Assembly (NCBI RefSeq): GCF_006874465.1
Contig: NZ_VIRL01000003.1
Location: 310,001 to 374,000 of the forward strand
DNA length: 64,000 nt
Source: Microbispora bryophytorum
Lineage (GTDB): Bacteria > Actinomycetota > Actinomycetes > Streptosporangiales > Streptosporangiaceae
Direction: 5' to 3'
Made by a program: the position numbers and the translations under genes. The notes below the pieces were generated by a model. The model made no database searches and was not told the origin of the DNA. It was given only the letters and a program-made list of their open reading frames with translations. Positions 1 to 15,778 of the stretch are shown here, in pieces (position 1 is the first letter of the stretch; each line of letters opens with the position of its first letter).

Positions 1-820
1 GCGTCCTCGGGGTGATCCGCTCCAGCGTGCCGAGCCACATGGTGGCCTGGTAGACCGCGGTGACCGGCCCCGAGAAGTACATGACGACCTCGGGCCGGTA
101 GGCCGCGACCCAGTCGTCCACGGCGGCGAGGACCCGCCGCCGGTCGCCCAGGTGCCTGGCCCGCCTCGCGTGGGCCAGCAGCGCGACCACGGCGGCGATC
201 TCCAGCATCAGGGCCGCGGCGGCGCCCGCCACGCCCGTCCAGCCCAGGCCCATGGGCGCCGTCGCCGCCGCGGGCACGACCGCGAGCACGTCGAGGTAGA
301 GCAGCCGGGCGCCCCGCCAGTTGAGCAGCGCGCGGCGCGGCGCGGGCGGGATCCGCAGCGCGGACAGGCCGATGTTGCGGGTCACCACCGGCATCTGGTT
401 GTGCCGGCGGTCGACGTGCTCGGCGAGCCACGTCTGCACGGCGCGCAGGCCGTGGAACAGGAACAGCCCGGCCGCGAGCGCCGCGAACCACAGCGGCCGG
501 CCCGGCGTCAGCCGGGCCAGCAGCACGACCGCGGCCGTCTCACGCGACAGGAAGCGGACCGTGGCCCCGAGGTGGGCCCGGCTCAGCGCCCGCGCCGCCC
601 GGCCGGGCAGCATGGCCTCCGCGGCGTACGACAGCGGCACGAGCACCGCGAAGGTCGCGGGCAACGGCCACACGGCGGTCGCGAGCAGGGCAGGGTACGA
701 CGCGAGCGTGAGCGCCGTGAACGCGCTCCTGCGTCCACCGGCCAGGCTTCTCAGCGCCGGTCGCCGGACTATCGCGACAAGTGCCTTCGGGGCCGTGCGC
801 CCCTTGTTGTTTCCCCCCAT
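1..820 (-). CDS. TagF/TarF-like CDP-glycerol glycerophosphotransferase family protein, N-terminal part (cut by window edge)
   Basis: Reading the minus strand from an ATG at 820 gives an open frame to the left edge (273 codons, no stop). The product begins with a short basic stretch followed by several hydrophobic, probably membrane-spanning segments, then a segment containing RPEVVMYFSG and YQATMWLGTLE. In actinobacterial glycerophosphotransferase-family proteins, as I recall them, such a membrane region precedes the CDP-glycerol:poly(glycerophosphate) transferase domain. That catalytic domain would lie beyond the window and is not seen. The gene starts 34 nt downstream of the CDP-ribitol-synthase-like gene, so the two are probably co-transcribed. 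A GGAGGG lies 14 nt before the ATG, a rather long spacing. It could also be an unrelated polytopic membrane protein; the neighbour is the main support for the assignment. Confidence 0.55.
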   Translation of the reverse strand, partial: MGGNNKGRTAPKALVAIVRRPALRSLAGGRRSAFTALTLASYPALLATAVWPLPATFAVLVPLSYAAEAMLPGRAARALSRAHLGATVRFLSRETAAVVLLARLTPGRPLWFAALAAGLFLFHGLRAVQTWLAEHVDRRHNQMPVVTRNIGLSALRIPPAPRRALLNWRGARLLYLDVLAVVPAAATAPMGLGWTGVAGAAAALMLEIAAVVALLAHARRARHLGDRRRVLAAVDDWVAAYRPEVVMYFSGPVTAVYQATMWLGTLERITPRT

Positions 821-854
821 GGGCGAGCGCCCGTCCCTCCGTACATGGTTGCGG

Positions 855-2261
855 TCATCGGATGAGCCGTACGTCCACGACCTGTCCCGTGAGGCGGGAC
901 AGCAGCACGTCGATGCTGGTGCGGGCGACGGCGGTGGGGGAGAGAAGCGTTCCGGCGGGTTCGTCGCCGAACGCGCGCAGCCGCATGGGGGTGGCGGTGC
1001 GCTCGGGGTTCACGCAGTTGACTCGGACACCCTGGCAGGACCACTCGTCCGCGAGTGCCTGGGTGAGGTTGACGACGGCGGCCTTCGTGGAGGAGTAGAG
1101 GCTGTAGTCGGCCCGGCCGCGGGTGTAGGACGAGGAGGTGTAGAGGAGCAGGTGGCCGTGGGTCTCCATCAGGTACTTCACGGACGCGCGGGCGATGTTG
1201 ACCGGTCCGAGGTAGTTGACCCCGATGGTCTCCTCGATCGTGTGCTGCCCGGCCTCGCCGAGTTTGCCCATGTGCAGCACGCCCGCCGTGTTGACGACGT
1301 AGTCGATCCGGCCGGTCTCGGCGTAGACCCGGGCGAGCGCGTCCTCCACGGCGGCGACGTCCTCGACGCGCACGCCGTTCTGGCTGCGGGAGAACGAGTG
1401 GACGCTCGCGCCGTATCTCCCGGCCAGCGCGACGATGTCCGCGCCGATGCCGTAGCTGCCGCCGAAGACCACGAGCGTGCGGCCCTCGAGCCCGGCCCGG
1501 TAGGCCTCCTCGTCCAGCGCGGGCGCCGCGTTCTCGGCGAGCTGGAAGAGCTTGTCGGCGATGAAGACGTCGACCGGATGGGTGACCTTCATGTTGTGCT
1601 CGCTGCCGGGCACGATGTAGATCGGCACGTCGGGCAGGTAGCGCAGCACGACGCCGCAGTCGTCCGTGGTGGGCAGCGAGGGGAACTCGGGGTCGGCCAG
1701 GGCCCGCTCGTACGCCGCCCGGATCACCGACAGCCGGAAGCACTGCGGGGTCTGCCCCCGGCGCAGCCGGGAGCGGTCGGGGATGTCGCGGATGATGTCG
1801 CCGCGCGGGCCGGGAGCGGCCACCACGATCGTGTCGGAGGAGGGGATCGCCACCTCGACCGCCTCGTAGCGTTCGAGCGCGGCCACACACTCGCTGATGA
1901 TGCGCGGCTCGATCAGCGGCCGCACGGCGTCGTGCAGCAGCACGTCGCACTCCTGCTCGCCCAGCGCGCTCAGCGCCCGCCAGGTCGTCTCGGTACGGCT
2001 CGCGCCTCCTTCGAGCACCCGGCCGACCTTGGTGTAGCCGTTCCTCCTGACGAGCTCCTCGGCCTCGGCGACGAAGCCGGGGGCCATCAGCACGACGACC
2101 TCGTCGATCTCCGGGTGGCCGTCGAACACGTCGAGGGTGTGCTCCAGGATCGTCTTCCCGGCGATCTTCAGAAGCTGTTTCGGGGTGTTGAGGCCCACGC
2201 GCTGGCCGACACCGCCGGCCAGCACCACCCCCACCCTGCGCAGACGCGATTCGGCGATCAT
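855..2261 (-). CDS. Bifunctional cytidylyltransferase/SDR reductase, Bcs1-like (CDP-ribitol synthase type)
   Basis: The 468-residue protein joins two enzymes. Residues 1 to about 235 are an IspD/TarI-type cytidylyltransferase: GGVGQR at 16-21, PKQ at 27-29 and HDAVRP at 110-115. Residues about 260-468 are a short-chain dehydrogenase/reductase: GGSYGIG at 267-273, a serine-rich active-site strand at 375-378 and YSSTK with Tyr389 and Lys393. Haemophilus Bcs1 has this fusion; there it reduces ribulose 5-phosphate and activates the product with CTP to give CDP-ribitol for polyol-phosphate polymers. The substrate here is inferred from that architecture. I chose ATG 2261 because GGAGGACATC precedes it; the open frame extends upstream to 2354 without support. 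It is divergent from the CDP-alcohol phosphotransferase gene and lies just upstream of the TagF-like gene. Confidence 0.85.
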   Translation of the reverse strand: MIAESRLRRVGVVLAGGVGQRVGLNTPKQLLKIAGKTILEHTLDVFDGHPEIDEVVVLMAPGFVAEAEELVRRNGYTKVGRVLEGGASRTETTWRALSALGEQECDVLLHDAVRPLIEPRIISECVAALERYEAVEVAIPSSDTIVVAAPGPRGDIIRDIPDRSRLRRGQTPQCFRLSVIRAAYERALADPEFPSLPTTDDCGVVLRYLPDVPIYIVPGSEHNMKVTHPVDVFIADKLFQLAENAAPALDEEAYRAGLEGRTLVVFGGSYGIGADIVALAGRYGASVHSFSRSQNGVRVEDVAAVEDALARVYAETGRIDYVVNTAGVLHMGKLGEAGQHTIEETIGVNYLGPVNIARASVKYLMETHGHLLLYTSSSYTRGRADYSLYSSTKAAVVNLTQALADEWSCQGVRVNCVNPERTATPMRLRAFGDEPAGTLLSPTAVARTSIDVLLSRLTGQVVDVRLIR

Positions 2262-2321
2262 GATGTCCTCCCCGGAGGAGACCCTACCCGTGCCGGAAGC
2301 CGGAGAAGGTGATTGCCACCT

Positions 2322-2331
2322 AGTGATCACT
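2322..2331. promoter_or_regulatory. Perfect palindrome AGTGATCACT in a divergent promoter region
   Basis: A perfect 10-bp palindrome sits in the 121-bp gap between the divergent CDP-ribitol-synthase-like gene and the CDP-alcohol phosphotransferase gene. Its position suits a shared operator. No clear -10/-35 pair was recognised, so function is a guess. Confidence 0.25.
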
Positions 2332-2382
2332 CGGTTACTTTGCGAGGTGAGCACGTGCGGTCAACGTGAAGCGGGTTTCCAT

Positions 2383-3939
2383 ATGGGGGCGGATCCGAGT
2401 AAGCCCGGTACGTCACGGGACACAGAGACGGTGGCGGTCGTCCTCGCGACCTCGCCGGCCGCAGGGCTGCCCTGGTCCGACGGCGCCCGGTCGGAGGGCA
2501 GCATCCTGGAGCGGCTCACCGCCCAGCTCCTCACGCTGCCGGTCCGCGAGGTGCTGGTCGTGGTGCGGAGCCAGGACGCCCAGGCGGGAGGGTGGGAGAA
2601 GGGCGCGCAGAGCGGCTCGCGGCACCAGATCTGCGTCAGCGACGGGCTGGCCGAGGACCTGCGGATCGTGGCCAAGACGGCCCGCGCCTCGACCTCGCCG
2701 GTCGCGGTGCTGGCGGCGGACGTGGTCGCGCACACCGAGGCGCTGTCGCTGCTGCTCGAACATCCCGCGCGCCCGACCGGCGCGATCGTCGCCAGCGGCG
2801 ACCCGGCCCCGCTGCGGCCGCCGGTGCGGACCGAGTGGGGCCGCGTCGTGTCGGCGGGCACGTCCTTCCACGAGGTCGAGTGGGCCAACGGCACGTTCCG
2901 CGGCGTCCTCCAGGTCGGGGAGGCCCACCTGGCCGGGCTCGCCGACATCGCCGAGGAGCTGGCCGACCTGGCCCAGCGCCGGCATCTCGGGCGCGTCGGC
3001 GACGGCGAGGTTCCCGAGCTGCTGCTCACGGGCCTGGTGCGGGCCGGCGTCCAGGTGCACGCCGTCGCGCTGAACACCCTGCACTGCGGGCGGACCGGCA
3101 CGCGCCCGGCCGCCGAGCGCGCGGTGCGCGAGCTGGCCGACGTCGACGAGGCGCAGGCCAAGCTCGACGCCGCGGTCAAGAGCGGCGACGGCTTCTTCAC
3201 CACCTACTGCGTCAGCTCGTGGTCGCGTCACCTCATCCGTCCGGCCGCCCGTCTCGGCCTGACCCCGAACACCGTCACCGGCATCTCGGTCGGGTTCGCC
3301 GCCATCGCCGCGATCTGGTTCTCCGACGGCCGCCGGGCGGGGCTCGTGGTCGGCGCCGTCGCGCTCTACCTGTCGTTCGTGCTCGACTGCCTGGACGGGC
3401 AGCTCGCCCGATACACGCGCCGGTTCTCCCCGCTCGGGAGCTGGCTCGACGCGATCTGCGACCGGCTCAAGGAATACCTGGTGTACGTGGGGCTGGCGGC
3501 CGGATACCTGGCCGGCTCCCGGGAGCCGTGGGAGATCTGGGCCCTGGCGGTGGGCGCGATGATCCTCCAGACGATCCGCCACATGGTCGACTTCGCCTAC
3601 GCGGGAGCGACGGCCGACCGGGTCAGGGCGGCCGGCTCGCGCGCGTCGGCCCCGCGTCCGATGGCCGTGCCCTGGGACGAGGCGCCCGCGGCGGCCGCCG
3701 CGAAGGGCACGGGATCGGTGCTGGCGCTGTCGCGACGGCTCGACGCGCTGAGCGGCGCGAGGGGCGTGGCCTACTGGGCGAAGAAGATGATCGTGCTGCC
3801 GATCGGGGAGCGAATGGCGCTGATCTCGGTGACGGCCGCGCTGTTCGACGCGCGGGTGACGTTCCTCGCGCTGCTGGTCTGGGGCGCGGTGGCCCTGGCC
3901 TACACGGCCGCCGGGCGGATGGCGAGGTCCTTCGCATGA
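2383..3939 (+). CDS. CDP-alcohol phosphotransferase with degenerate nucleotidyltransferase N-domain (IPCT/DIPPS-like architecture)
   Basis: The C-terminal half carries an intact CDP-alcohol phosphotransferase signature: Asp335, Asp338, Ala342-Arg343, Gly352, Asp356 and Asp360, followed by hydrophobic segments. It joins a CDP-activated head group to an alcohol acceptor at the membrane. Before it, the stretch around residue 269 (DGFFTTYCVSSWSR) resembles the linker of archaeal/thermophile inositol-phosphate cytidylyltransferase-DIPP synthase fusions. The first 230 residues have the strand pattern of a nucleotidyltransferase but lack the GGxGxR and PK motifs, so this domain is probably non-catalytic. 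ATG 2383 was chosen for lack of overlap; a GTG at 2347 is possible, and neither has a strong ribosome site. It overlaps the next gene by ATGA, implying translational coupling. The substrates are unknown. Confidence 0.7.
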   Translation: MGADPSKPGTSRDTETVAVVLATSPAAGLPWSDGARSEGSILERLTAQLLTLPVREVLVVVRSQDAQAGGWEKGAQSGSRHQICVSDGLAEDLRIVAKTARASTSPVAVLAADVVAHTEALSLLLEHPARPTGAIVASGDPAPLRPPVRTEWGRVVSAGTSFHEVEWANGTFRGVLQVGEAHLAGLADIAEELADLAQRRHLGRVGDGEVPELLLTGLVRAGVQVHAVALNTLHCGRTGTRPAAERAVRELADVDEAQAKLDAAVKSGDGFFTTYCVSSWSRHLIRPAARLGLTPNTVTGISVGFAAIAAIWFSDGRRAGLVVGAVALYLSFVLDCLDGQLARYTRRFSPLGSWLDAICDRLKEYLVYVGLAAGYLAGSREPWEIWALAVGAMILQTIRHMVDFAYAGATADRVRAAGSRASAPRPMAVPWDEAPAAAAAKGTGSVLALSRRLDALSGARGVAYWAKKMIVLPIGERMALISVTAALFDARVTFLALLVWGAVALAYTAAGRMARSFA

Positions 3940-4610
3940 GCGAGCGTAGCCGCCGCCCGCGCGAGGCCGGCGGGAAGGCCCGGGGCGCGATCTCCGTGCA
4001 CATGACCCCGGTGCCGAGCGGCGCCGTGGTGGCCTACCGCGACGACGGCCCGCTGTCGAAGGCGATGGGGCTGCTCGTGGCGGGGCAGCTTCCGCCGCTG
4101 CCGCCCGCGCTCGCGGGCGCCTTCGTGACCGGGGTGCTGCTGGTGCTCGGCATCGCCGGGGCCGACGACTTCGCGGTCTTCGCCCCGGCGGTGGCCCTGC
4201 TGCTGGCCGGGGCGGGCAGCGCGCACCGGCACGACGGCCGGCTCGACTGGCTGGCGCCCCCGATCCTGCGGCTGACCGAGTATGGCTTCATCGCCTCGGC
4301 CGGGTTCGCCCGCTCCGTCCCGCCGGCGCTCATCGTCGCGCTGCTTGGCGCGATGGCCTTCCACCACTACGACACGGTCTACCGGCTGCGCCAGCACGTG
4401 TACGCGCCGCCGTGGCTGGCGACCGCCGGGCTGGGCTGGGACGGCCGGATGCTCATCGTCGCCCTGGGCGGCCTGCTCGACGTGATGACCGCCGTGTTCG
4501 TGCTGCTCGCGGTCTACCTGTGGGCCCTGTTCGGCTGGGAGAGCCTGACCTGCTGGCTCGCCGCTCCCCGCACGCCCGACGAGGCCGTGGACCCGGCACC
4601 CCAGGATTAG
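3936..4610 (+). CDS. DUF5941-like integral membrane protein
   Basis: This 224-residue protein starts at an ATGA overlap with the CDP-alcohol phosphotransferase. A basic N-terminal tail is followed by a DGPLSKAMG segment, several membrane spans and a HHYDTVYRLR motif near residue 145. From memory, streptomycete homologues carry this region fused to the CDP-alcohol phosphotransferase as the DUF5941 domain; here it is a separate gene. I infer that the two products work as one complex. No catalytic chemistry can be assigned from the sequence, and the DUF number should be checked by profile search. Confidence 0.6.
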   Translation: MSERSRRPREAGGKARGAISVHMTPVPSGAVVAYRDDGPLSKAMGLLVAGQLPPLPPALAGAFVTGVLLVLGIAGADDFAVFAPAVALLLAGAGSAHRHDGRLDWLAPPILRLTEYGFIASAGFARSVPPALIVALLGAMAFHHYDTVYRLRQHVYAPPWLATAGLGWDGRMLIVALGGLLDVMTAVFVLLAVYLWALFGWESLTCWLAAPRTPDEAVDPAPQD

Positions 4611-4783
4611 TCGTGCCCGGCAGAACGTGCCCTGCTGTACGTGGCCCAGACGGCGCCTGGCCGCGTTCTCGTCGGCCTTGCGACGCATCAACCCTGGATC
4701 CACGCTCGCGACGGGCGGCCTTTATCAAGCACTCCCTAACGTCAGACCAACGGTGAATTACCCAACAGGGGCGCTGAGCCAAC

Positions 4784-4798
4784 TAACCTTTGGGGTTA
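4784..4798. promoter_or_regulatory. Small inverted repeat TAACC-N5-GGTTA upstream of the cytidylyltransferase operon
   Basis: Five-base arms at 4784-4788 and 4794-4798 flank a 5-base spacer, just upstream of the first gene of the 4833-8447 operon. The 195-bp gap before that operon otherwise shows no convincing promoter elements. The repeat may be an operator, but it is short enough to arise by chance. Confidence 0.2.
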
Positions 4799-4832
4799 CT
4801 GTCTGATGCTCGACCTCAAGGAGTGCGGGAAA

Positions 4833-5564
4833 TTGCTCGGAATGGTGCTGGCCGCCGGAGCCGGACGTCGCCTGCGGCCGTACACCGACACGCTGCCGAA
4901 GGCGCTGGTGCCGGTCGACGGTGAGACCACGATCCTCGACATCGCCCTGCGTAACCTGGCAGCCGTGGACCTCCGCGAGGTCGTGGTGATCGTCGGCTAC
5001 CAGGCCCAGGCCGTACGGGAACGGCAGGCCGACCTGGAGCGGCGCCACGGGGTGAAGCTCACGCTTGTCCACAACGACAAGGCCGAGGAGTGGAACAACG
5101 CCTACTCACTGTGGTGTGCCCGCGACTACTTCTCCCAGGGCGCGCTGCTGGTCAACGGCGACACCGTCCACCCCGTGTCGGTGGAGCGGACTCTGCTGGC
5201 CGCCGAGGACACCTCCGACATCCTGCTCGCCGTCGACGACGTGAAGTCGCTGGCGGACGAGGAGATGAAGGTCACACTGGAGGACGGACGGCTGAAGCGG
5301 ATCACCAAGCTGATGGACCCGTCCGAGGCGTACGGCGAGTACATCGGCGCCACGCTGATCCGGCCGGGCGCGGCGGAGCGGCTCGCCGACGCGCTGAAGG
5401 CCACCTTCGAGCGCGACCCGCAGCTCTACTACGAGGACGGCTACCAGGAGATGGTCGAGCGCGGCGAGAAGATCGCCGTGGCGCCGATCGGCAAGGTCGA
5501 GTGGGTCGAAGTGGACAACCACGACGACCTCGCGAAGGCACGTGAGATCGCATGCCGTTACTGA
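4833..5564 (+). CDS. Phosphocholine/polyol-phosphate cytidylyltransferase family (LicC-like nucleotidyltransferase)
   Basis: This is a single-domain NTP-transferase of about 243 residues with AAGAGRR at residues 7-13 and PKA at 22-24, the nucleotide-binding loop of the sugar-phosphate/phosphocholine nucleotidyltransferase fold, followed by an NGD strand motif. Relatives activate phosphocholine or another phospho-alcohol with CTP. The choline substrate is only the family label; in this operon a glycerol- or polyol-phosphate is equally plausible. I chose the TTG at 4833 because AAGGAG ends 9 nt upstream of it and homologues usually begin directly with the GMVLAAG strand. An in-frame ATG at 4806 would add nine residues but has no ribosome site. 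It is the first gene of a four-gene operon that ends at the hairpin 8464-8501. Confidence 0.8.
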   Translation: MLGMVLAAGAGRRLRPYTDTLPKALVPVDGETTILDIALRNLAAVDLREVVVIVGYQAQAVRERQADLERRHGVKLTLVHNDKAEEWNNAYSLWCARDYFSQGALLVNGDTVHPVSVERTLLAAEDTSDILLAVDDVKSLADEEMKVTLEDGRLKRITKLMDPSEAYGEYIGATLIRPGAAERLADALKATFERDPQLYYEDGYQEMVERGEKIAVAPIGKVEWVEVDNHDDLAKAREIACRY

Positions 5565-5590
5565 TTTCCGCGGCCTTCTGAGGAGTTCGC

Positions 5591-6649
5591 ATGCCGATTC
5601 TGGCAAGGATGCTCCCCGCGCCTCTCACGATGGAGGTGCGGCGGGGCGCGATCGCGCAGCTCGGCACCCTGCTCGCCGACAGCAGGGTGGCCACCTCCGG
5701 CAGAGTCGCGGTCGCGGTCGGCGTCGGGCAGGGCGACCGCATCGCGGAGGTCATCGCGCCGTCGCTGGGTGAGGCCGAGGTGCTCCGGGTGGCGGACGGC
5801 ACCGTGGACGCGGCCGTGTCGCTCGGCGCCGACCTGCGCAAGGGCAACTACGAGGCGGTGGTCGGCGTCGGCGGCGGCAGGACGATCGACGCCACCAAGT
5901 ACGCCGCGTCGCTCGCCGGCATCCCCATGGTCGCCGTCGCCACCAACCTCTCGCACGACGGCATCTGCTCGCCGGTGGCCTCGCTGATGCACGAGGGCGG
6001 CAAGGGCTCGTTCGGCGTTCCCATGCCGCTGGCGATCATGGTGGATCTCGATTTCGTCCACGACGCGCCGCCCTCACTCGTCCGGTCCGGGATCGGCGAC
6101 GTGCTCAGCAACCTGTCGGCCATCGAGGACTGGCAGCTCGGCAACACCGAGCGGGGCGAGCCCATCGACGGGCTGGCGATCTCCATGTCGCGCACCGCGG
6201 CCGAGGCCGTGCTCGGCCGGCCGGACTCGATCGAGTCGGACGCGTTCCTGACCGTGCTCGCCGAGGCGCTGATCCTGTCGGGGATGTCGATGGTCATCGC
6301 GGGGTCCAGCCGTCCGGCGAGTGGCGGCGATCATGAGATCCTTCATGCTGTGGACCAGCTTTTCCCCGGCACCTCCAATCACGGTGAGCTGGCCGGCATC
6401 GGCGCCGCGTTCTGCTACTTCCTCCGTGAGGACGCGCACCGGCTCGGCCAGGTGACCGCCTGCCTCGAACGGCACGGCCTGCCCGTCGCGCCCGGCGACG
6501 TCGGCCTCACGACCGAACAATTCACGGCCGCGGTGATGCTGGCACCCAGCACGCGGCCCGGCCGCTACACCATCCTTGAGCACCTCCGGCTGTCGGAGCA
6601 CGAGGTCCGGGAAAGAGTTGAGGACTATGTCCGCGCCGTCGGTCGCTGA
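5591..6649 (+). CDS. sn-glycerol-1-phosphate dehydrogenase-like iron-containing alcohol dehydrogenase (EgsA/AraM family)
   Basis: The 352-residue protein has a GGG nucleotide loop at 94-96, a conserved NLSHDGI segment at 119-125, and likely metal ligands Asp170 (in SGIGD), His248 (in GGDHEI) and His264 (in SNHGE). This matches the G1P dehydrogenase branch of the iron-containing alcohol dehydrogenases, which reduces dihydroxyacetone phosphate to sn-glycerol 1-phosphate with NAD(P)H. G1P is the archaeal enantiomer; in bacteria such enzymes (AraM) are rarer. GAGGAG precedes the ATG by 6 nt. It lies 26 nt after the cytidylyltransferase and overlaps the next gene by 23 nt, which suggests that its product feeds a CDP-activation and phosphotransfer route. 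Activity on another phospho-ketone cannot be excluded. Confidence 0.75.
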   Translation: MPILARMLPAPLTMEVRRGAIAQLGTLLADSRVATSGRVAVAVGVGQGDRIAEVIAPSLGEAEVLRVADGTVDAAVSLGADLRKGNYEAVVGVGGGRTIDATKYAASLAGIPMVAVATNLSHDGICSPVASLMHEGGKGSFGVPMPLAIMVDLDFVHDAPPSLVRSGIGDVLSNLSAIEDWQLGNTERGEPIDGLAISMSRTAAEAVLGRPDSIESDAFLTVLAEALILSGMSMVIAGSSRPASGGDHEILHAVDQLFPGTSNHGELAGIGAAFCYFLREDAHRLGQVTACLERHGLPVAPGDVGLTTEQFTAAVMLAPSTRPGRYTILEHLRLSEHEVRERVEDYVRAVGR

Positions 6650-7385
6650 GCTTCGCGCGGTCGCCCAGCCGCAGACCACCATGGACCGCCGCAGCGGCGA
6701 GCACTGGGCCGGCTTGCTGTACATGCGGCGCCTGTCCATCTACGCCACCTGGTTGCTGGCCAAGACCCCGATCTCGCCGAACCAGGTCACCGGTCTGATG
6801 ATCGTGTGCGGGGTGGGGGCGGGCGCCGTGCTCGCCCTCCCCGGCTTCTGGGCGGCGCTGGGCGCGGCCCTGCTCATCCAGATCTACCTGCTGCTCGACT
6901 GCTCCGACGGGGAGCTGGCCCGGTGGACCGGCCGCACCTCGATCACCGGGGTCTACCTCGACCGGGTCGGGCACTACTTCGCCGAGGCGGCGCTGCTGAT
7001 CGGGCTGGGCTTCCGGGCCTCGGAGACCCTGCCCGACTGGTACACCGTGATAGGCGTGGCGGCGGCGCTCGGCGCGATTTTGATCAAGTCGGAGACCGAC
7101 CTGGTCGACGTCGCCCGCGCCCGGTCGGGCCTGCTGGCGACGACCGAGGCGGCCGCGCAGCAGTTCACCTCGCCGCGGCTCGCGCTGGCCCGCAGGGCCG
7201 CGGCGGTGCTGCGGTTCCACCGGGTGATCCAGGCCGTCGAGCTGTCGCTGATCGTCGTGGTCGCGGCGCTGCTCGACAACTGGTTCTCCGCCACCCGCAT
7301 CCTCATGGTCGCCTGCGTCGTCATCGCGGGAGTCCAGCTCCTGCTGCACCTGGTCAGCATCCTCGCCTCCCGGCGGCTGTCATGA
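6627..7385 (+). CDS. CDP-alcohol phosphotransferase with His in place of the fourth conserved Asp
   Basis: This 252-residue polytopic membrane protein carries the CDP-alcohol phosphotransferase motif: Asp91, Asp94-Gly95, Ala98-Arg99, Gly108 and Asp112. The position of the fourth aspartate, usually assigned as metal ligand or general base, is His116 (LDRVGHY). The rest of the motif spacing is canonical, so this is not an alignment artefact. The segment ISPNQVTG at about 49-56 is the usual cytosolic loop before the second span. I chose ATG 6627, with GAGTTGAGG nearby, over an upstream in-frame ATG at 6576; the gene overlaps the dehydrogenase by 23 nt. Together with the preceding cytidylyltransferase and G1P-dehydrogenase-like enzyme it may make a CDP-derived phosphodiester lipid or polyol phosphate. 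The exact product is unknown. Confidence 0.75.
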   Translation: MSAPSVAELRAVAQPQTTMDRRSGEHWAGLLYMRRLSIYATWLLAKTPISPNQVTGLMIVCGVGAGAVLALPGFWAALGAALLIQIYLLLDCSDGELARWTGRTSITGVYLDRVGHYFAEAALLIGLGFRASETLPDWYTVIGVAAALGAILIKSETDLVDVARARSGLLATTEAAAQQFTSPRLALARRAAAVLRFHRVIQAVELSLIVVVAALLDNWFSATRILMVACVVIAGVQLLLHLVSILASRRLS

Positions 7386-7565
7386 GCGCGTCGTCTCCCG
7401 CGCGGCATGCCGATCGGCCGTACATTCGCGGTTGGGTAGGGGTTTGGTGGCAGTTCCGATACCCTTGTCCCACGGTGAACCAGGCAGATTCCGGATTGCC
7501 CGGCCATACAGACTCGGTGATCATGAAGTCGTGTGTAGCGCGCCCCACGTCGAGGCGATGACGCG

Positions 7566-8447
7566 GTGAAAATCTCCTGTGTCATCCTCACCATGGGCAA
7601 CAGGATGGCCGAGCTCGACCGGGCGGTGGAATCCGCGCTCACCCAGACCGACGGCGACATCGAGGTCGTCATCGTCGGCAACGGCGCGGACGTGCCGGAT
7701 CTGACCGCGCGGCCGTTCCCCGGCTCCGCCGCGACGATCAAGACCGTACGGCTGGAACACAACGCGGGCATCCCCGAGGGGCGCAACCGCGGCGTGCAGG
7801 AGTGCTCGGGTGACATCGTCCTGTTCCTGGACGACGACGGCTGGTATGCCAACTCCAAGGTCGCCGCGCACGTCCGCGAGCGGTTCACGCATGAACCCGA
7901 CCTCGCCGTGGTCAGCTTCCGGGTGATGGACCCCGAGGGCGGCTCGGTGCAGCGGCGGCACGTGCCCCGCCTGCGGGCCGGCGATCCCGAGCGCTCCTCC
8001 CCGGTGACGACCTTCCTCGGCGGCGCCTGCGCGATCCGCAAGTCGGCGTTCCTGCAGGTCGGTGGGTTGCCGGAGAAGTTCTTCTACGCCCACGAGGAGA
8101 CCGACCTCGCCTGGCGCCTGCTCGGCGAGGGCTATCGCATCGAGTACGACGCCGAGACGGTCATGTACCACCCGCTGGTGCTGCCGTCCCGGCACACGGA
8201 CTTCTTCCGGCTGAACGCCCGCAACCGCGTCTGGCTGGCCCGGCGCAACCTGCCGTGGCCGCTCGCGATGTTCTACCTGCTCAACTGGGTCGTGCTCACG
8301 CTCGTACGCGAGCGCTCGATGCCCGCGATCAAGTCGTGGTTCCGCGGCTTCTTCGAAGGGCTGCGCGAGCCCGCGGGCGAGCGCCGTCCGATGGCCTGGC
8401 GCACCGCCTGGCGCATGCTCCGCCTCGGCCGCCCGCCCATCGTCTAG
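7566..8447 (+). CDS. GT2 family glycosyltransferase
   Basis: The 293-residue GT-A protein opens with a beta strand (ISCVILTMGNR), has a DDD metal/nucleotide motif at 89-91 and a GGACAIRKSAF acceptor-side loop, then the EETDLAWRL helix typical of the family. The last 90 residues include one or two hydrophobic stretches that probably lie on the membrane. It starts at a GTG 180 nt after the CDP-alcohol phosphotransferase. No gene lies in the gap and I see no convincing promoter there, so it is probably the last gene of the operon, before the hairpin at 8464. It probably decorates the polyol-phosphate or lipid made by the preceding genes; donor and acceptor are unknown. Confidence 0.8.
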   Translation: MKISCVILTMGNRMAELDRAVESALTQTDGDIEVVIVGNGADVPDLTARPFPGSAATIKTVRLEHNAGIPEGRNRGVQECSGDIVLFLDDDGWYANSKVAAHVRERFTHEPDLAVVSFRVMDPEGGSVQRRHVPRLRAGDPERSSPVTTFLGGACAIRKSAFLQVGGLPEKFFYAHEETDLAWRLLGEGYRIEYDAETVMYHPLVLPSRHTDFFRLNARNRVWLARRNLPWPLAMFYLLNWVVLTLVRERSMPAIKSWFRGFFEGLREPAGERRPMAWRTAWRMLRLGRPPIV

Positions 8448-8463
8448 CGGTTCGTCGTCCCGC

Positions 8464-8501
8464 CCGGCGGCGTGCGCGGGGTGACCGGGGCACGCCGCCG
8501 G
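8464..8501 (+). terminator. Strong intrinsic hairpin after the GT2 gene
   Basis: A perfect 12-bp inverted repeat (CCGGCGGCGTGC, 8464-8475, pairing with 8490-8501) encloses a 14-nt loop, 16 nt after the stop of the GT2 gene. It lacks a U-tract, as is common in actinobacteria. It separates the polyol-phosphate operon from the ion channel gene. Confidence 0.7.
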
Positions 8502-8587
8502 AGCGCGGGGCTGCCGACACGTTCGGAAACCGGAGTCAACTTCGCATGTAGGATTTCGGGCGTTTGTTCGGCCTGATCTTCTGAGGT

Positions 8588-9469
8588 GTGGGTTTGCCCC
8601 CTTTCCATCGCGAACGGTTCCGCGTCGTCGTCGACTCTCCGGTCTTCCAGCGCGCGGTCATCGCCGTCATCGCGTTGAACGGGATCGCCCTCGGGCTGGA
8701 GACGTCGCCCGAGCTGGCCGACCGCCACGCCACGGCCTTCCTCGTGATCGACCGGGTCATCCTCGCCGTTTTCGTGGTGGAGATCCTCCTGCGGATCGTC
8801 GCGTACGGTAAGGCGTTCTTCCGCGACCCCTGGAACTGGTTCGATCTGATCATCGTCGGGGCGGCTCTCATGCCGGCCTCGGAGTCGCTGTCGATCCTGC
8901 GGCTCTTCCGGTTCCTGCGCGTCCTGCGGTTGATCTCCGTGGTGCCGGGCATGCGACGGGTGGTCTCGGCGCTGTTCACCGCGATTCCGGGACTGGCCTC
9001 GGCCGTGGTCCTCCTGCTGCTGTCGCTCTACACGGCGTCCGTGATCGGCGAACAGCTCTTCCGAGAAGCGGCCCCGCAGTATTTCGGAGATCTCGGGCGG
9101 TCGCTGTTCACCATGTTCACGGTGCTCACGGTCGAGAACTGGCCGCAGGTGGCCGAGGACGTGATGGCCAAGGAGCCGCTGGCGTGGATCTTCTTCGCCA
9201 CGTTCATCGTCATCACGGCGTTCTTCGTCCTCAACCTGCTCATCGGGGTGATCGTCTCCGCGATGGAGGCGGAGGTCAACGCCCAGCGGTGGAAGGAGGA
9301 CCAGGAGCTGGAACTGCAGCAGCACACCGCGGTCATGGACGAGATCAGGGCGCTGAGTGAAAGGGTCGACCGGCTGGCGGCCGTCCTGCCGATGCCCGTG
9401 GACGCCCCTCCCGCGGAGGCTGACGCCCCCTCAGGAGGGGATCGCTGCTCCTGCGGCCAAGATCCGTGA
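8588..9469 (+). CDS. Voltage-gated cation channel, single-domain NaChBac/NavAb type
   Basis: The 293-residue protein has six membrane spans. S4 carries four arginines at three-residue spacing (Arg105, 108, 111, 114), the hallmark of a voltage sensor. The pore loop contains TVENW at 181-185, at the position of the TLESW selectivity filter of bacterial sodium channels, with the filter glutamate at 183. S6 (about 200-228) ends in a charged, probably coiled-coil tail (about 235-275), as in NaChBac homotetramers. The filter differs from the sodium-channel consensus at two positions, so selectivity between Na+ and Ca2+ is open. The start is a GTG at 8588. The gene stands alone between the hairpin at 8464-8501 and the convergent decarboxylase-like gene. 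Confidence 0.88.
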   Translation: MGLPPFHRERFRVVVDSPVFQRAVIAVIALNGIALGLETSPELADRHATAFLVIDRVILAVFVVEILLRIVAYGKAFFRDPWNWFDLIIVGAALMPASESLSILRLFRFLRVLRLISVVPGMRRVVSALFTAIPGLASAVVLLLLSLYTASVIGEQLFREAAPQYFGDLGRSLFTMFTVLTVENWPQVAEDVMAKEPLAWIFFATFIVITAFFVLNLLIGVIVSAMEAEVNAQRWKEDQELELQQHTAVMDEIRALSERVDRLAAVLPMPVDAPPAEADAPSGGDRCSCGQDP

Positions 9470-12020: not shown

Positions 12021-12059
12021 AGGGCCGCCCGCGCCCACGGGGGCGGGCGCGGCGGTCCT
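12021..12059. terminator. Hairpin between convergent sigma and GT4 genes
   Basis: CCGCGCCC pairs with GGGCGCGG around a short loop, and an outer imperfect stem extends it. The structure occupies almost the whole gap between two convergent genes and probably terminates both. Confidence 0.6.
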
Positions 12060-13221
12060 AGACGTTCTGCCCCGACAGGTTGGCCAGGCGGCCGGCGGGA
12101 GAACGGTCCGGGAGGGCGGCGACGGGGCTGGGGGCCTGGGCCCACCGTTCGAGCAGGGTGACGAACTCCCCGGCCACGGCGGGCCAGTGGTAGTGGTTCA
12201 GCGCCTCGACGTAACCCCGCGCGCCCATCGCGGCACGCCGTTCGGCGTCCGCGCGCAGGTGGAGCACGCACTGCACGACCGCGTCGGCCACCGCGCCGAC
12301 CTCGCCGAACGGGACGATCGTCCCGCAGCCGACCCGCCCGACCAGGGACGCCGCCCCCGGCAGCGGGGTCGTGACGACGGGGATGCCGCGGGCCATGTAT
12401 TCGATGACCTTCGTGGGCGTCGACTCGCGGTAGTTCGGCACGTCGTGCAGCAGGGACAGCCCGGCCAGGGCGCCCTCGGCCATCCGCAGCGCGTGGTTGT
12501 TGGGGACGTACCCGAACCAGTCGAGCAGCCCCCCGCGCTGCGCGTCGCGCAGCATCGGACGCACCGCGGCGTCGGCCGGTCCGACCAGATCCAGGCGGAT
12601 GCCGTACGGCCGGAGCCGCCGGGCGATCTCCACCATCTCGGCCGCGCCGCGCGCGAGGGAGATCTGGCCCACGTAGACGATCCGGTGGTCCCCCGGCGGC
12701 GCGGGCGGCGTCCGCGGCACGTACGTGTGGTTGGGCACCACGGGGTGCGCGCCGGGGAAGCGCTCACGGTAGGACTCCTCGGCGAGGATGAGGTGGAGGC
12801 GCCGCTCCGCCCGGCTCTCCACCGCGCGGATCAGCGGCGGCAGGACGCTCCGCACCGGCCCCGGCAGGTACGTCTTGGCGTTCAGCGCGCCGATCGTGTC
12901 CTCGTGCACGTCCCAGACCGTCGGCGGACGTTTGCGGGGCAGCGCGAGCAGCAGCTCGATGTCGTGCACGACCAGCAGGTCGGCGTCTCGCACCGCCGTG
13001 CGCAGGGCGGAGGCGGCGGTCCGCAGCGCCTTGCCGCGGTGCAACCCCACGGCCCTCGGGACGTCGACGGCACGGATGCCCTGCCGCGGCGTCACGTTGC
13101 AGTGCGTGAACGGCGCGACGAAGGTGACCTCGTGCCCGGCGTCGAGGAGCGCCCGGATCTGCCGGTGGGTGATCCGGGCGTCCTCGGGGTGATGGACTGT
13201 CGTGCCGACGCATACCCTCAT
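12058..13221 (-). CDS. GT4 family glycosyltransferase
   Basis: This 387-residue GT-B protein has an N-terminal Rossmann domain that begins MRVCVGTTVHHPEDARI and a C-terminal donor domain with a VGQISLARGAAEM strand and the ESTPTKVIEYMARGIPVV segment, which holds the conserved glutamates contacting the sugar nucleotide. Donor and acceptor are unknown. It lies between the sigma operon (convergent) and the acyltransferase gene (same strand, upstream), so it is probably part of the minus-strand envelope glycan group 12058-20072. Confidence 0.8.
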   Translation of the reverse strand: MRVCVGTTVHHPEDARITHRQIRALLDAGHEVTFVAPFTHCNVTPRQGIRAVDVPRAVGLHRGKALRTAASALRTAVRDADLLVVHDIELLLALPRKRPPTVWDVHEDTIGALNAKTYLPGPVRSVLPPLIRAVESRAERRLHLILAEESYRERFPGAHPVVPNHTYVPRTPPAPPGDHRIVYVGQISLARGAAEMVEIARRLRPYGIRLDLVGPADAAVRPMLRDAQRGGLLDWFGYVPNNHALRMAEGALAGLSLLHDVPNYRESTPTKVIEYMARGIPVVTTPLPGAASLVGRVGCGTIVPFGEVGAVADAVVQCVLHLRADAERRAAMGARGYVEALNHYHWPAVAGEFVTLLERWAQAPSPVAALPDRSPAGRLANLSGQNV

Positions 13222-13288: not shown

Positions 13289-15778
13289 TTAACTTCCGGT
13301 GTTCGCCGGCTGTGGCGTCCGTCCGCCGGGCCTCCGGTACAGCCAGGTCAGCCGGGGTTCGAGCAGCCACTTGAACGCCGTACGGGTGACCGGCAGGCAC
13401 AGCACGATGGCCAGGGCGAAGCAGGAGCACGCGATTGCCGCCACGCCGAGCGGGCCGTGCAGCCAGGAGAAGCTGAGCCAGCCCATCTCCTTGGCGATCA
13501 TCACGGGCACGCCGTGCAGCAGGTAGCAGTAGAGCGTGCGGGTGCCGAGGTCGGTGAACCACGTCTGGCGCCGGGGAACCAGCGACATCACGGCCGCCGA
13601 CATGGCCAGCGCGGCCACCAGCAGGCCCGTGCGCAGCATCATGCCCTTCCACCAGACCAGGTGGAGGTCCTTGTAGCTGTTCTTGTAGTAGATCGGGCCG
13701 AGCTTGATCGAGTAGTTCTTCACCAGGAAGATCGCCACACCGGCCGCGCCCAGCAGGACGAGCACCGACAGCACTCGCACCCAGCGCTGCTTGAGGAAGT
13801 CGAAGACCTCCGGCTTGAGCACGAGGCCGAGAACGAAGAACGGCATCAGGCCGAAGAAGCGGTCCATGCTGAAGTCGCCGGACAGCTGGGAGAACCCGGC
13901 GAACAGATACACGGCGATCGAGATGAGGAACGGATACTTCATCCGCTTCCACACGGGTGTGGACAGTCGCCAGAACAGCAGCGCGAGCAGATACCAGTTC
14001 AACCAGGCCGGGTCGGTGATCGTGATGCTGAACTTGTGCCCGAAGGCGGTGCGCAGCACGGCATATCCCAGCTCGACGATCACGTACGGCACGAGGAACG
14101 TGTCGACCAGTTTGTTGGTCTTCGCGTTGGAGTTCCAGAAGTTCCTGGACAGGTAGCCGCTGACGATGACAAACAGCGGCATGTGGAAGACGTAGATGAA
14201 CAGGTACGCCGCCCGGGAGGAGTCGACCGCCACCGTCGGGACCAGCGAGTGCCCGATCGGCACCAGGGCGATGCCGACGAACTTCACGTTGTCCAGGTAG
14301 GGATCGCGCGGCTTCCTGGCCCGGGGCGCGGACTCCTGCTCGGGCTCCTTCTCCAGGTCGCCGCGCTGTCCCGCACCCCGGGCGGAGGGGGCGTCCGCTT
14401 GGACGGGCACCTCGGCCCAGGCGGGAAGCGGAGCGCGCAGCGGCCTGCCGAGCGGACCGGTCTGGCGGGGGTCCGCGCCGCCGGAGCCGTCCTGCGAGCG
14501 CCGCCAGGGGTCCCACTGGGCGGGGTCGCCGGCCTCCTGACCGGGCCACGCGGGAGCCGGCGCGTCCGGCGCGGGGCTGAACGCCGCGTTCGGGGCGGCC
14601 CCGGAGAAGGCGTCAGGCAAACCCCGCCCGCCGCGCTGGCCGCGGGTGGTCTCGGGGAACGGCGTGGCGCCGAAGGGGTCGTCCGGTGTGAAGGCGGGGC
14701 CGGCGCCGGACGGGGGAGTGTCGAGGAAAGGGTTCGCCGACCTGCCGGCGGCGGTCGCCGGTGGCTCCGGGAAGCCGGGAGGTTCGGGGAAGCTGGGAGG
14801 TTCGGGGAAGCCGGAAAACGGCGTCCCCAGCGACTCTGGCCCGGAGCCGAAGGCCGGGGTGGGGAAGGCCGGCGACTCGCCGAAGGGAGGCGTGGGGACG
14901 TCGGAGCCGTCCTGCGGGCTGGGCGCCGACGACCGCCGGGTGGCGCCGGGGAAGGCGTCCGCCAGGTTGCGGGGACCGTGCTCGGGGAACGTCTGCGGCC
15001 ACGCGGGGCCGTCGGCGGTGCCCTCGCCCGCCGCGGGACGCTCCGTGTCCTGACGCTCGGTGTCCCTGAGCTCCGGGCCCCGGCCTGCGGAGAAGTAGTC
15101 GAAGCCCTCCGGTTGCGGGGCGGACGCGGGCGGCATGCCCATGCGTGAGGCGCCCGGCTGGCGCGGCTTGCGTACGGGGAGCGGCTGCCTCTCGTACGGC
15201 GGGGCACCGGAGGGCATGGAACTGGTCAGCGCTGCGCCGCTCGTTGAGACGCCGGGCTCACCGGCGCTCCGCGGCTTGCGCACGGGCAGTGGCTGCTTCT
15301 CGTACGGCGGGGCGCCGGAGGGGGCGGAGCCGGTCGGCGTGAAGCCCGTCGGCGCGGCGCTGTTGGGCACGCCGGTGTTGGGCACGCCGGTGTTGGGCAC
15401 GCCGGTGTTCGGCATGGCGTTGTTCGGCACGGCGCCGGGGCTGTCGGCACGCCCCGCTTCGGCGGCCGTGCCGGCCGTCTCGCCGCCCTCGTGGCGTCCG
15501 TGCGCGGGTGCGATCGCGCTCTCGTCGCCGGGAGCCGGAAGAGCCCCCTCATGGCGCCCGTGCTCGTGCCGTTCTTGGGTCTGGAAGCCGGGCCGGCCGA
15601 CGCCCTGCTCCGCCTCCGCACCGCCCGCGGTCTTCGGCTCCCGCCGTGGCAGGCCGCCGTCCGGAGGGGGCCAGTCTCCGGTGACGCGGCCTATCACTCC
15701 GGTGGGAGCCTCTTCGGCATCGGGGTCGTTGCCTTGCGGGGATCCGGGAACCGGGGCGTGATGGCGGGAGTCACTCAC
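13289..15778 (-). CDS. Acyltransferase-3 family membrane protein with about 480-residue disordered N-terminal tail
   Basis: Residues about 490-829 form an acyltransferase-3 domain: it opens with RDPYLDNVKFVGIALVPIGHS (the conserved histidine of the family is in the last part) and has about ten membrane spans. Such enzymes O-acylate envelope glycans. The preceding 480 residues are hydrophilic, rich in Pro, Gly and Ala, and contain two copies of GAPPYE/KxQPLPVRKPR and a run of NTGVP repeats. A tail of this size is unusual for the family and should be cytoplasmic. The start is a GTG at 15778 with a poor ribosome site; later starts are possible. Upstream on the same strand lies the LCP gene, 344 bp away. 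Confidence 0.8.
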   Translation of the reverse strand: MSDSRHHAPVPGSPQGNDPDAEEAPTGVIGRVTGDWPPPDGGLPRREPKTAGGAEAEQGVGRPGFQTQERHEHGRHEGALPAPGDESAIAPAHGRHEGGETAGTAAEAGRADSPGAVPNNAMPNTGVPNTGVPNTGVPNSAAPTGFTPTGSAPSGAPPYEKQPLPVRKPRSAGEPGVSTSGAALTSSMPSGAPPYERQPLPVRKPRQPGASRMGMPPASAPQPEGFDYFSAGRGPELRDTERQDTERPAAGEGTADGPAWPQTFPEHGPRNLADAFPGATRRSSAPSPQDGSDVPTPPFGESPAFPTPAFGSGPESLGTPFSGFPEPPSFPEPPGFPEPPATAAGRSANPFLDTPPSGAGPAFTPDDPFGATPFPETTRGQRGGRGLPDAFSGAAPNAAFSPAPDAPAPAWPGQEAGDPAQWDPWRRSQDGSGGADPRQTGPLGRPLRAPLPAWAEVPVQADAPSARGAGQRGDLEKEPEQESAPRARKPRDPYLDNVKFVGIALVPIGHSLVPTVAVDSSRAAYLFIYVFHMPLFVIVSGYLSRNFWNSNAKTNKLVDTFLVPYVIVELGYAVLRTAFGHKFSITITDPAWLNWYLLALLFWRLSTPVWKRMKYPFLISIAVYLFAGFSQLSGDFSMDRFFGLMPFFVLGLVLKPEVFDFLKQRWVRVLSVLVLLGAAGVAIFLVKNYSIKLGPIYYKNSYKDLHLVWWKGMMLRTGLLVAALAMSAAVMSLVPRRQTWFTDLGTRTLYCYLLHGVPVMIAKEMGWLSFSWLHGPLGVAAIACSCFALAIVLCLPVTRTAFKWLLEPRLTWLYRRPGGRTPQPANTGS
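15162..15322. repeat. Two imperfect 53-bp direct repeats inside the acyltransferase gene
   Basis: The segments 15162-15214 and 15270-15322 are near-identical and encode the repeated GAPPYE-QPLPVRKPR block of the disordered tail. They keep the reading frame and could vary in copy number by recombination. Confidence 0.75.
15362..15406. repeat. 15-bp tandem repeat (three units) encoding NTGVP
   Basis: The unit GTTGGGCACGCCGGT occurs three times in a row, with diverged copies on both sides. The unit length is a multiple of three, so copy-number changes would stay in frame within the acyltransferase tail. Confidence 0.7.

Follow-up and report, generated by a model that had tools for sequence, protein, structure and literature searches.

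In Bacillus subtilis, the TagD/TarD-TagB-TagF system feeds cytidine diphosphate (CDP)-glycerol to TagF-type polymerases, and the polymer is then exported by TagGH-type transporters and attached by LytR-CpsA-Psr (LCP) ligases. The wall and lipoteichoic acids of this species are enantiomers built from differing precursors, and its CDP-glycerol is the sn-3 form (PMC7086022). The opposite form, CDP-1-glycerol, has been described as likely absent from bacteria (PMC8262930), and the sn-glycerol-1-phosphate dehydrogenases (G1PDH) of actinobacteria have been taken as a possible pointer to archaeal-like lipids (PMC6431249). The locus described here lies at the start of a 64,000-nucleotide stretch of Microbispora bryophytorum (assembly GCF_006874465.1, contig NZ_VIRL01000003.1, positions 310,001 to 374,000 of the forward strand), called the window below, in a genome of 7.85 Mb. 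It carries a six-gene operon in which a LicC-like cytidylyltransferase gene directly precedes a G1PDH-like gene. With moderate confidence, based on gene families and gene context, this core operon is read as making and using the mirror-image form of CDP-glycerol for a teichoic-type wall polymer, in place of TagD. Its genes, all on the plus strand, are as follows.

About 2431 to 3939, plus strand: DUALP, an N-terminal domain without a detected family followed by a CDP-alcohol phosphotransferase domain (PF01066, 41.4 bits); the start codon is uncertain
3936 to 4610, plus strand: DUF5941 protein (PF19365, 94.2 bits), overlapping the DUALP stop codon
4806 to 5564, plus strand: LicC-like (COG1213-type) cytidylyltransferase (NTP_transferase PF00483, 55.5 bits)
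5591 to 6649, plus strand: G1PDH-like dehydrogenase (NCBIfam PRK00843, 237.9 bits)
6627 to 7385, plus strand: CDPOH, a membrane CDP-alcohol phosphotransferase (PF01066, 32.6 bits)
7566 to 8447, plus strand: family 2 glycosyltransferase (GT2; PF00535, 67.5 bits), the last core gene

The proposed pathway begins with the dehydrogenase, which, judging from its family, would reduce dihydroxyacetone phosphate to sn-glycerol-1-phosphate. LicC would then join this product with CTP to give CDP-1-glycerol, a step suggested by the near-obligate pairing of the two genes. In one branch, CDPOH and GT2 may pass glycerol-1-phosphate to a membrane-bound acceptor, and in other branches it may go directly to TagF-type polymerases. 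The outcome would be a wall polymer of the teichoic type, with TagGH-like transporters for its export and LCP ligases for its attachment. The G1PDH-LicC route would stand in for the canonical TagD route, which yields sn-3 CDP-glycerol. Both the stereochemistry and the product are predictions from gene families and neighbours.

The pairing itself was counted in 296 Actinomycetes genomes, with cut-offs of E<=1e-20 for G1PDH and E<=1e-25 for LicC. G1PDH matched in 73 genomes, of which 72 were kept after removal of G255 (31% identity); two partial G224 fragments were left uncounted. LicC was found in 72 of the 296 genomes, and both genes together in 71. G1PDH stands alone in G229 and LicC in G241; each of these matches sits at a contig start, with the partner expected beyond it, and a renewed search of G241 for G1PDH gave no match at E<=1e-5. 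LicC lies directly upstream of 72 of 75 G1PDH copies on the same strand, and the match ends overlap by 10 nt in 62 of them. The non-adjacent copies are those of G229, of G224 (a pair 10 kb apart) and the second copy in G273. Such an arrangement would be expected of a dedicated two-step pathway. The genome that holds the window has no further LicC homologue above 40 bits.

Dehydrogenase genes also occur in other settings. Second, Streptomyces-like copies, with LicC at L156 and L166 and without it at L164, lie near rne-like and rplU-rpmA-obg-like genes as judged by eye (L and G numbers are labels for loci and genomes). Phage and plasmid collections yielded further homologues, including those of the non-actinomycetes Nitratidesulfovibrio (L180) and Cytobacillus (L181), and the gene tables of these two list no cytidylyltransferase adjoining the dehydrogenase. 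G1PDH-like proteins with 30-33% identity are also present in MT835727.1 and MT837087.1 (Bacteriophage sp., human faeces), which are possibly bacterial DNA mislabelled as phage.

Genome content links the pair to wall-polymer genes. TagF-type genes (PF04464) occur in 140 of the 296 genomes and in 69 of the 72 with G1PDH. TagD matches above 100 bits, a threshold of our own choice, are present in 22 of the 296 genomes and in 0 of the 72; the curated cut-off of 165.4 bits is passed by 3 of the 296, and at E<=0.001 some TagD-superfamily match appears in 115, many of them G1PDH-bearing. Among the 140 TagF genomes, 69 have G1PDH and 19 have TagD, and none has both. Four PF04464 matches are found in the window's own genome, with three TagF-domain proteins in two other regions.

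Gene neighbourhoods point the same way. Of 80 named Streptosporangiales loci, 77 encode an LCP ligase, and at the window's locus (L009) an LCP gene (PF03816, 165.2 bits) and a GT2 gene stand farther upstream. A wider set of 31 loci was picked across the class (L143-L174 without L171), including second copies and some loci from the window's order; a TagF, ABC-2 or LCP match is present in 23 of them. At L147, the LicC-G1PDH pair has as neighbours an ABC-2 exporter, the exporter's ATPase and a GT2-Glyphos_transf fusion polymerase; at L144 it lies near LCP, GT2 and ABC-2 genes, and at L154 near an ABC-2 gene, an ATPase gene and a gene for a GlfT2-like enzyme. In another class (L195), the gene immediately next to LicC encodes a homologue of the TagF-like protein of the window, and a TagGH-type exporter is near many of the loci chosen at class and phylum level. 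The initial annotation had proposed that the dehydrogenase feeds the cytidylyltransferase. Gene context supports this proposal strongly, through the near-perfect co-occurrence and adjacency of the two genes, their links to genes for TagF, exporters and LCP ligases, and the lack of TagD matches above 100 bits in G1PDH genomes.

The same genome set bears on an archaeal-type lipid route, in which G1PDH would supply sn-glycerol-1-phosphate for ether or ester lipids while the cytidylyltransferase and the CDP-alcohol transferases build head groups. Coleman et al. 2019 count Streptomyces among the genera in which the three archaeal lipid genes all occur (PMC6431249), and PlsY and PlsC reportedly take both forms of glycerol phosphate (PMC13400652). 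Against this, the GGGPS model PF01884 has no match at E<=0.001 in the 72 G1PDH genomes, with B. subtilis and archaeal controls positive, and G1PDH is tied to LicC and to wall-polymer genes. The Streptomyces suggestion is weakened because G1PDH genomes lack a GGGPS match, though GGGPS may be too divergent for the PF01884 model. A lipid route is very improbable. The initial annotation had proposed a polyol-phosphate envelope pathway through a CDP-activated sn-glycerol-1-phosphate or similar intermediate, possibly leading to a polymer or a novel phospholipid head group. Gene context strongly supports the activated intermediate and the polymer, while the head group finds no support, given the missing GGGPS match.

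The core operon is conserved as a unit in the Streptosporangiales, so the outcome that the initial annotation had named as counting against its reading, an unconserved operon, did not arise. Of 150 sampled genomes of this order, 149 have G1PDH, G002 being the sole miss. The order LicC-G1PDH-CDPOH-GT2 is intact in all 80 named loci, which are the 80 top-ranking of 115 matches and so biased to close relatives, some of them cut by contig ends. DUALP is found in 80 of 80 and DUF5941 in 76 of 80. The core is therefore DUALP-DUF5941-LicC-G1PDH-CDPOH-GT2 (2431-8447). Bcs1 (78/80) and TagF (52/80) were earlier placed in the same unit, yet they are left out of the conserved operon because both lie on the strand opposite to the core and their presence varies; they form a variable divergent module.

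Conservation extends beyond the class. When LicC was searched for in 296 genomes of the phylum, 14 matches reached E<=1e-40, 4 of them outside the class (302, 300, 285 and 149 bits). Of these outer loci, L193 and L194 retain DUALP-DUF5941-LicC-G1PDH-CDPOH-GT2, and L196 carries ABC-2, ATPase, LicC, G1PDH, CDPOH and GT2. At L195, DUALP-DUF5941-LicC is followed by the TagF-like homologue, and G1PDH lies elsewhere on the same contig. In Streptomyces fungicidicus (L182), a named Streptomyces locus, the order is DUF5941, LicC, G1PDH, CDPOH, glycosyltransferase, ABC permease, ABC ATPase and hopanoid genes; here a single 605-aa gene annotated as DUF5941 replaces DUALP and DUF5941, consistent with a DUALP-DUF5941 fusion. 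The hopanoid genes hpnC, hpnD, hpnE, shc and hpnH stand 3' of this operon and its ABC exporter (L182:9447-25056).

Gene calling and family scans found all of the genes listed earlier in their places with the predicted domains, including the G1P-type dehydrogenase, the LicC-like gene, the two CDP-alcohol phosphotransferases and GT2. The features that flank the core are as follows.

2 to 820, minus strand: 5' part of a TagF-like glycerophosphotransferase gene that runs off the window; a variable neighbour outside the core
L009:16970-18820: complete form of the TagF-like gene, 616 aa (PF04464, weak match, 38.4 bits)
855 to 2261, minus strand: Bcs1-like fusion of an IspD-type cytidylyltransferase and a short-chain dehydrogenase/reductase; a divergent neighbour
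8464 to 8501, plus strand: 12-bp inverted repeat 3' of GT2 (arms 8464-8475 and 8490-8501), a candidate hairpin terminator

The Bcs1-like fusion matches IspD at 156.8 bits (residues 43-268) and adh_short at 101.1 bits (residues 294-458), and it probably serves CDP-ribitol-type synthesis. A terminator had also been predicted after GT2, and a hairpin there is plausible: the inverted repeat lies in a stretch (8445-8590) with a fold z-score of -3.47, but it has no T-run and is not among the matches of a terminator pattern scan. Past the operon, the window encodes an ion-transport channel protein at 8588-9469 (PF00520, 162.8 bits), present in 5 of the 80 named loci, and, judged by eye, a glycosyltransferase-like protein at 12058-13221 and a large acyltransferase-like membrane protein at 13289-15778. 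A second DUALP and DUF5941 pair (44% and 37% identity) is found elsewhere in the genome (C60, L010:10645-12959), near recO-like and uppS-like genes as seen by eye, so the two genes occur as a unit beyond the operon as well.

The family assignment of the dehydrogenase underlies the predicted stereochemistry. Its best matches, in three Microbispora species, are 97-98% identical. The G1PDH model PRK00843 scores 237.9 bits, followed by glycerol dehydrogenase at 56. Among solved structures, it aligns best with 3ce9 (named a glycerol dehydrogenase), then with the archaeal G1PDH structures 4rgq, 4rfl and 5fb3. D170, H248 and H264 align with the same residues in 4rgq and 4rfl, and these positions correspond to the Asp/His/His metal ligands of archaeal G1PDH. 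H248 and H264 are invariant in 28 sequences, and D170 is kept in at least 90% of them, with Glu in L149. The enzyme is proposed to convert dihydroxyacetone phosphate to sn-glycerol-1-phosphate. For LicC, the nearest solved relatives are 1jyk (phosphocholine cytidylyltransferase) and the nucleotidyl transferases 4jd0 and 6pd1. R22, K32 and D119 are invariant in 25 sequences and align with Arg, Lys and Asp of 4jd0; D119 is assigned as the metal Asp by position only. The Arg and Lys are critical residues of the 4jd0 enzyme (PMC12275187). LicC is proposed as a candidate CTP:sn-glycerol-1-phosphate cytidylyltransferase.

These family data also leave room for another CDP-alcohol. The dehydrogenase could reduce a different keto-phosphate or ketone, with LicC activating the product (for example another polyol phosphate or glycerol-2-phosphate) for a wall polymer of similar kind. 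A CDP-2-glycerol route is known from pneumococcus. Related dehydrogenases do use other substrates, the score of 237.9 bits is below the NCBIfam equivalog cut-off of 413, and the best solved match bears the name of a glycerol dehydrogenase. COG1213 enzymes likewise act on diverse substrates: phosphocholine, phosphoglutamine, inositol phosphate and phosphoglycerate (PMC12275187). However, the G1PDH model is by far the best curated match, the motifs align and the metal-ligand positions are kept, and the pair is associated with TagF-type genes without TagD above 100 bits. This explanation is rather unlikely.

Several further observations weigh against the replacement of TagD by a CDP-1-glycerol route. 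G1PDH and TagD above 100 bits are both missing from 52 of the 140 TagF genomes, and TagF is without a match in 3 of the 72 genomes with G1PDH. The genomes are related, so Fisher p-values for co-occurrence overstate independence. Eight of the 31 further loci show no TagF, ABC-2 or LCP match within ~10 kb, and the ABC-2 queries matched none of the 80 named Streptosporangiales loci. G1PDH also stands without LicC in the fetched stretch at the second copies L160 (G118, order sample) and L164, and at L149, whose LicC lies at a distance of 10 kb. In family f20, ten genomes with the pair carry a TagD-superfamily match of 58-68 bits, and these proteins could supply CDP-3-glycerol. Family f20 appears to be Streptomyces, since its G1PDH sequences are 75-90% identical to that of L182 where compared, with the next best at ~52%. 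Finally, gene families alone leave the stereochemistry unfixed because TagD-type enzymes and one TagF-like polymerase accept both enantiomers. In vitro, one TagF-like capsule polymerase makes polymer from enantiopure CDP-1-glycerol, a second TagF-like polymerase gives no polymer from it, and two TagD-type enzymes take both enantiomers with a preference for sn-3 (PMC8262930).

The f20 TagD-superfamily proteins were looked at in five loci (L184-L188), where they are stand-alone proteins of 138-167 aa. At L184, L186 and L188, and also at L189 from a genome without the pair, the gene adjoins a CDP-alcohol-transferase-like gene as judged by eye. These neighbours possibly form a separate CDP-alcohol route.

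The two CDP-alcohol phosphotransferases differ at their catalytic motif. This enzyme family has a four-Asp hallmark motif, and mutants of the last Asp, the suggested catalytic base, are wholly inactive (PMC9385802, review). Homologues were kept at BLAST scores of at least 90 bits for CDPOH and DUALP, 200 for LicC and GT2, and 250 for G1PDH. The first three motif Asp residues of CDPOH are present in 100 of 100 homologues, and the fourth position holds His in 69, Ala in 31 and Asp in 0; the window's protein has His. Most Nonomuraea loci carry Ala (L112 does not), as do most loci of f20 and of named Streptomyces (L168 does not), and His recurs in L148, L151, L193, L194 and L196. In alignments, the three nearest solved relatives have Asp at this position. 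DUALP has the four-Asp motif in 95 of 97 homologues, the others being L087 (Ala) and L095 (without a motif match). CDPOH may use another base, may have an acceptor that needs none, or may not be a usual enzyme of this family. The absence of the catalytic Asp from CDPOH raises a question of its own, in an enzyme family that has been studied in depth. A broader reading would have a large part of the Actinomycetota build sn-glycerol-1-phosphate wall polymers from CDP-1-glycerol, made by a dedicated G1PDH-LicC pair that replaces TagD, with CDPOH working without the catalytic base of its family, perhaps on an acceptor that is already ionised, such as a lipid phosphate. This extension is tentative, a little short of even odds.

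Structural relatives of the transferases suggest another possible product. DUALP has AF2299 (4o6m) as its best solved relative, and in sequence DUALP and CDPOH alike are similar to AF2299 and to the inositol-phosphotransferase 4mnd. AF2299 and 4mnd have a nucleotidyltransferase domain in front. The N-terminal domain of DUALP was compared with LicC by profile, and a nucleotidyltransferase assignment was unsupported (probability 1.4%). Through such transferases, CDP-glycerol might end in a soluble or lipid phosphodiester, such as a glycerophosphoinositol-like solute or a glycolipid decoration, with no wall polymer. Such solutes are known mainly from hyperthermophiles, and exporters, ligases and polymerases lie nearby in many genomes, both of which count against it. 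CDP-1-glycerol has been cited in archaeal glycerophosphoinositol biosynthesis (PMC8262930), which speaks in its favour. On balance, a phosphodiester product is improbable.

The preferred reading, a mirror-image CDP-glycerol route to a teichoic-type polymer, would have several consequences. The operon offers a different and testable role for a bacterial G1PDH: supplying a wall polymer precursor. If true, this would bear on the lipid-divide debate, the wall polymers would resist GlpQ, which is stereospecific for sn-3, and the pair could be an enzymatic source of CDP-1-glycerol. No proposal that a LicC-G1PDH pair synthesizes CDP-1-glycerol was found in the open-licence literature accessible for this comparison, and the literature matches listed held nothing useful on the stereochemistry of actinomycete teichoic acids.

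Comparison with described systems places the locus among them. It resembles TagD/TarD-TagB-TagF of Bacillus subtilis in sending CDP-glycerol to TagF-type polymerases, with TagGH-type export and LCP ligation. It differs in its COG1213/LicC-type cytidylyltransferase and its G1P-type dehydrogenase, with sn-1 rather than sn-3 stereochemistry predicted. AraM-PcrB of B. subtilis and archaeal G1PDH-GGGPS share the same dehydrogenase family, but the operon pairs G1PDH with a cytidylyltransferase, and the 72 G1PDH genomes contain no GGGPS match. Systems of the IPCT/DIPPS and AF2299 type also couple a cytidylyltransferase with a CDP-alcohol phosphotransferase and include the nearest solved relatives by sequence; in the operon, by contrast, the genes are separate, G1PDH lies between them and CDPOH lacks the fourth Asp. 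CpgD, the phosphoglycerate cytidylyltransferase of Caulobacter, is likewise a COG1213 enzyme acting on a three-carbon phosphate, yet its substrate is phosphoglycerate, its product serves a sphingolipid, and the available portions of its description mention no G1PDH partner (PMC12275187). The Streptomyces tagG-tagH-araM clusters reported in 2026 show the neighbourhood described here, with a nucleotidyltransferase, a CDP-alcohol transferase and GT2, and bear a teichoic-acid-associated label, and the portions of that report available here propose no pathway, substrate or stereochemistry (PMC13118837). Compared with these systems, the locus is best read as a teichoic-type precursor supply by a different enzyme pair, with the opposite stereochemistry if the family assignment holds.

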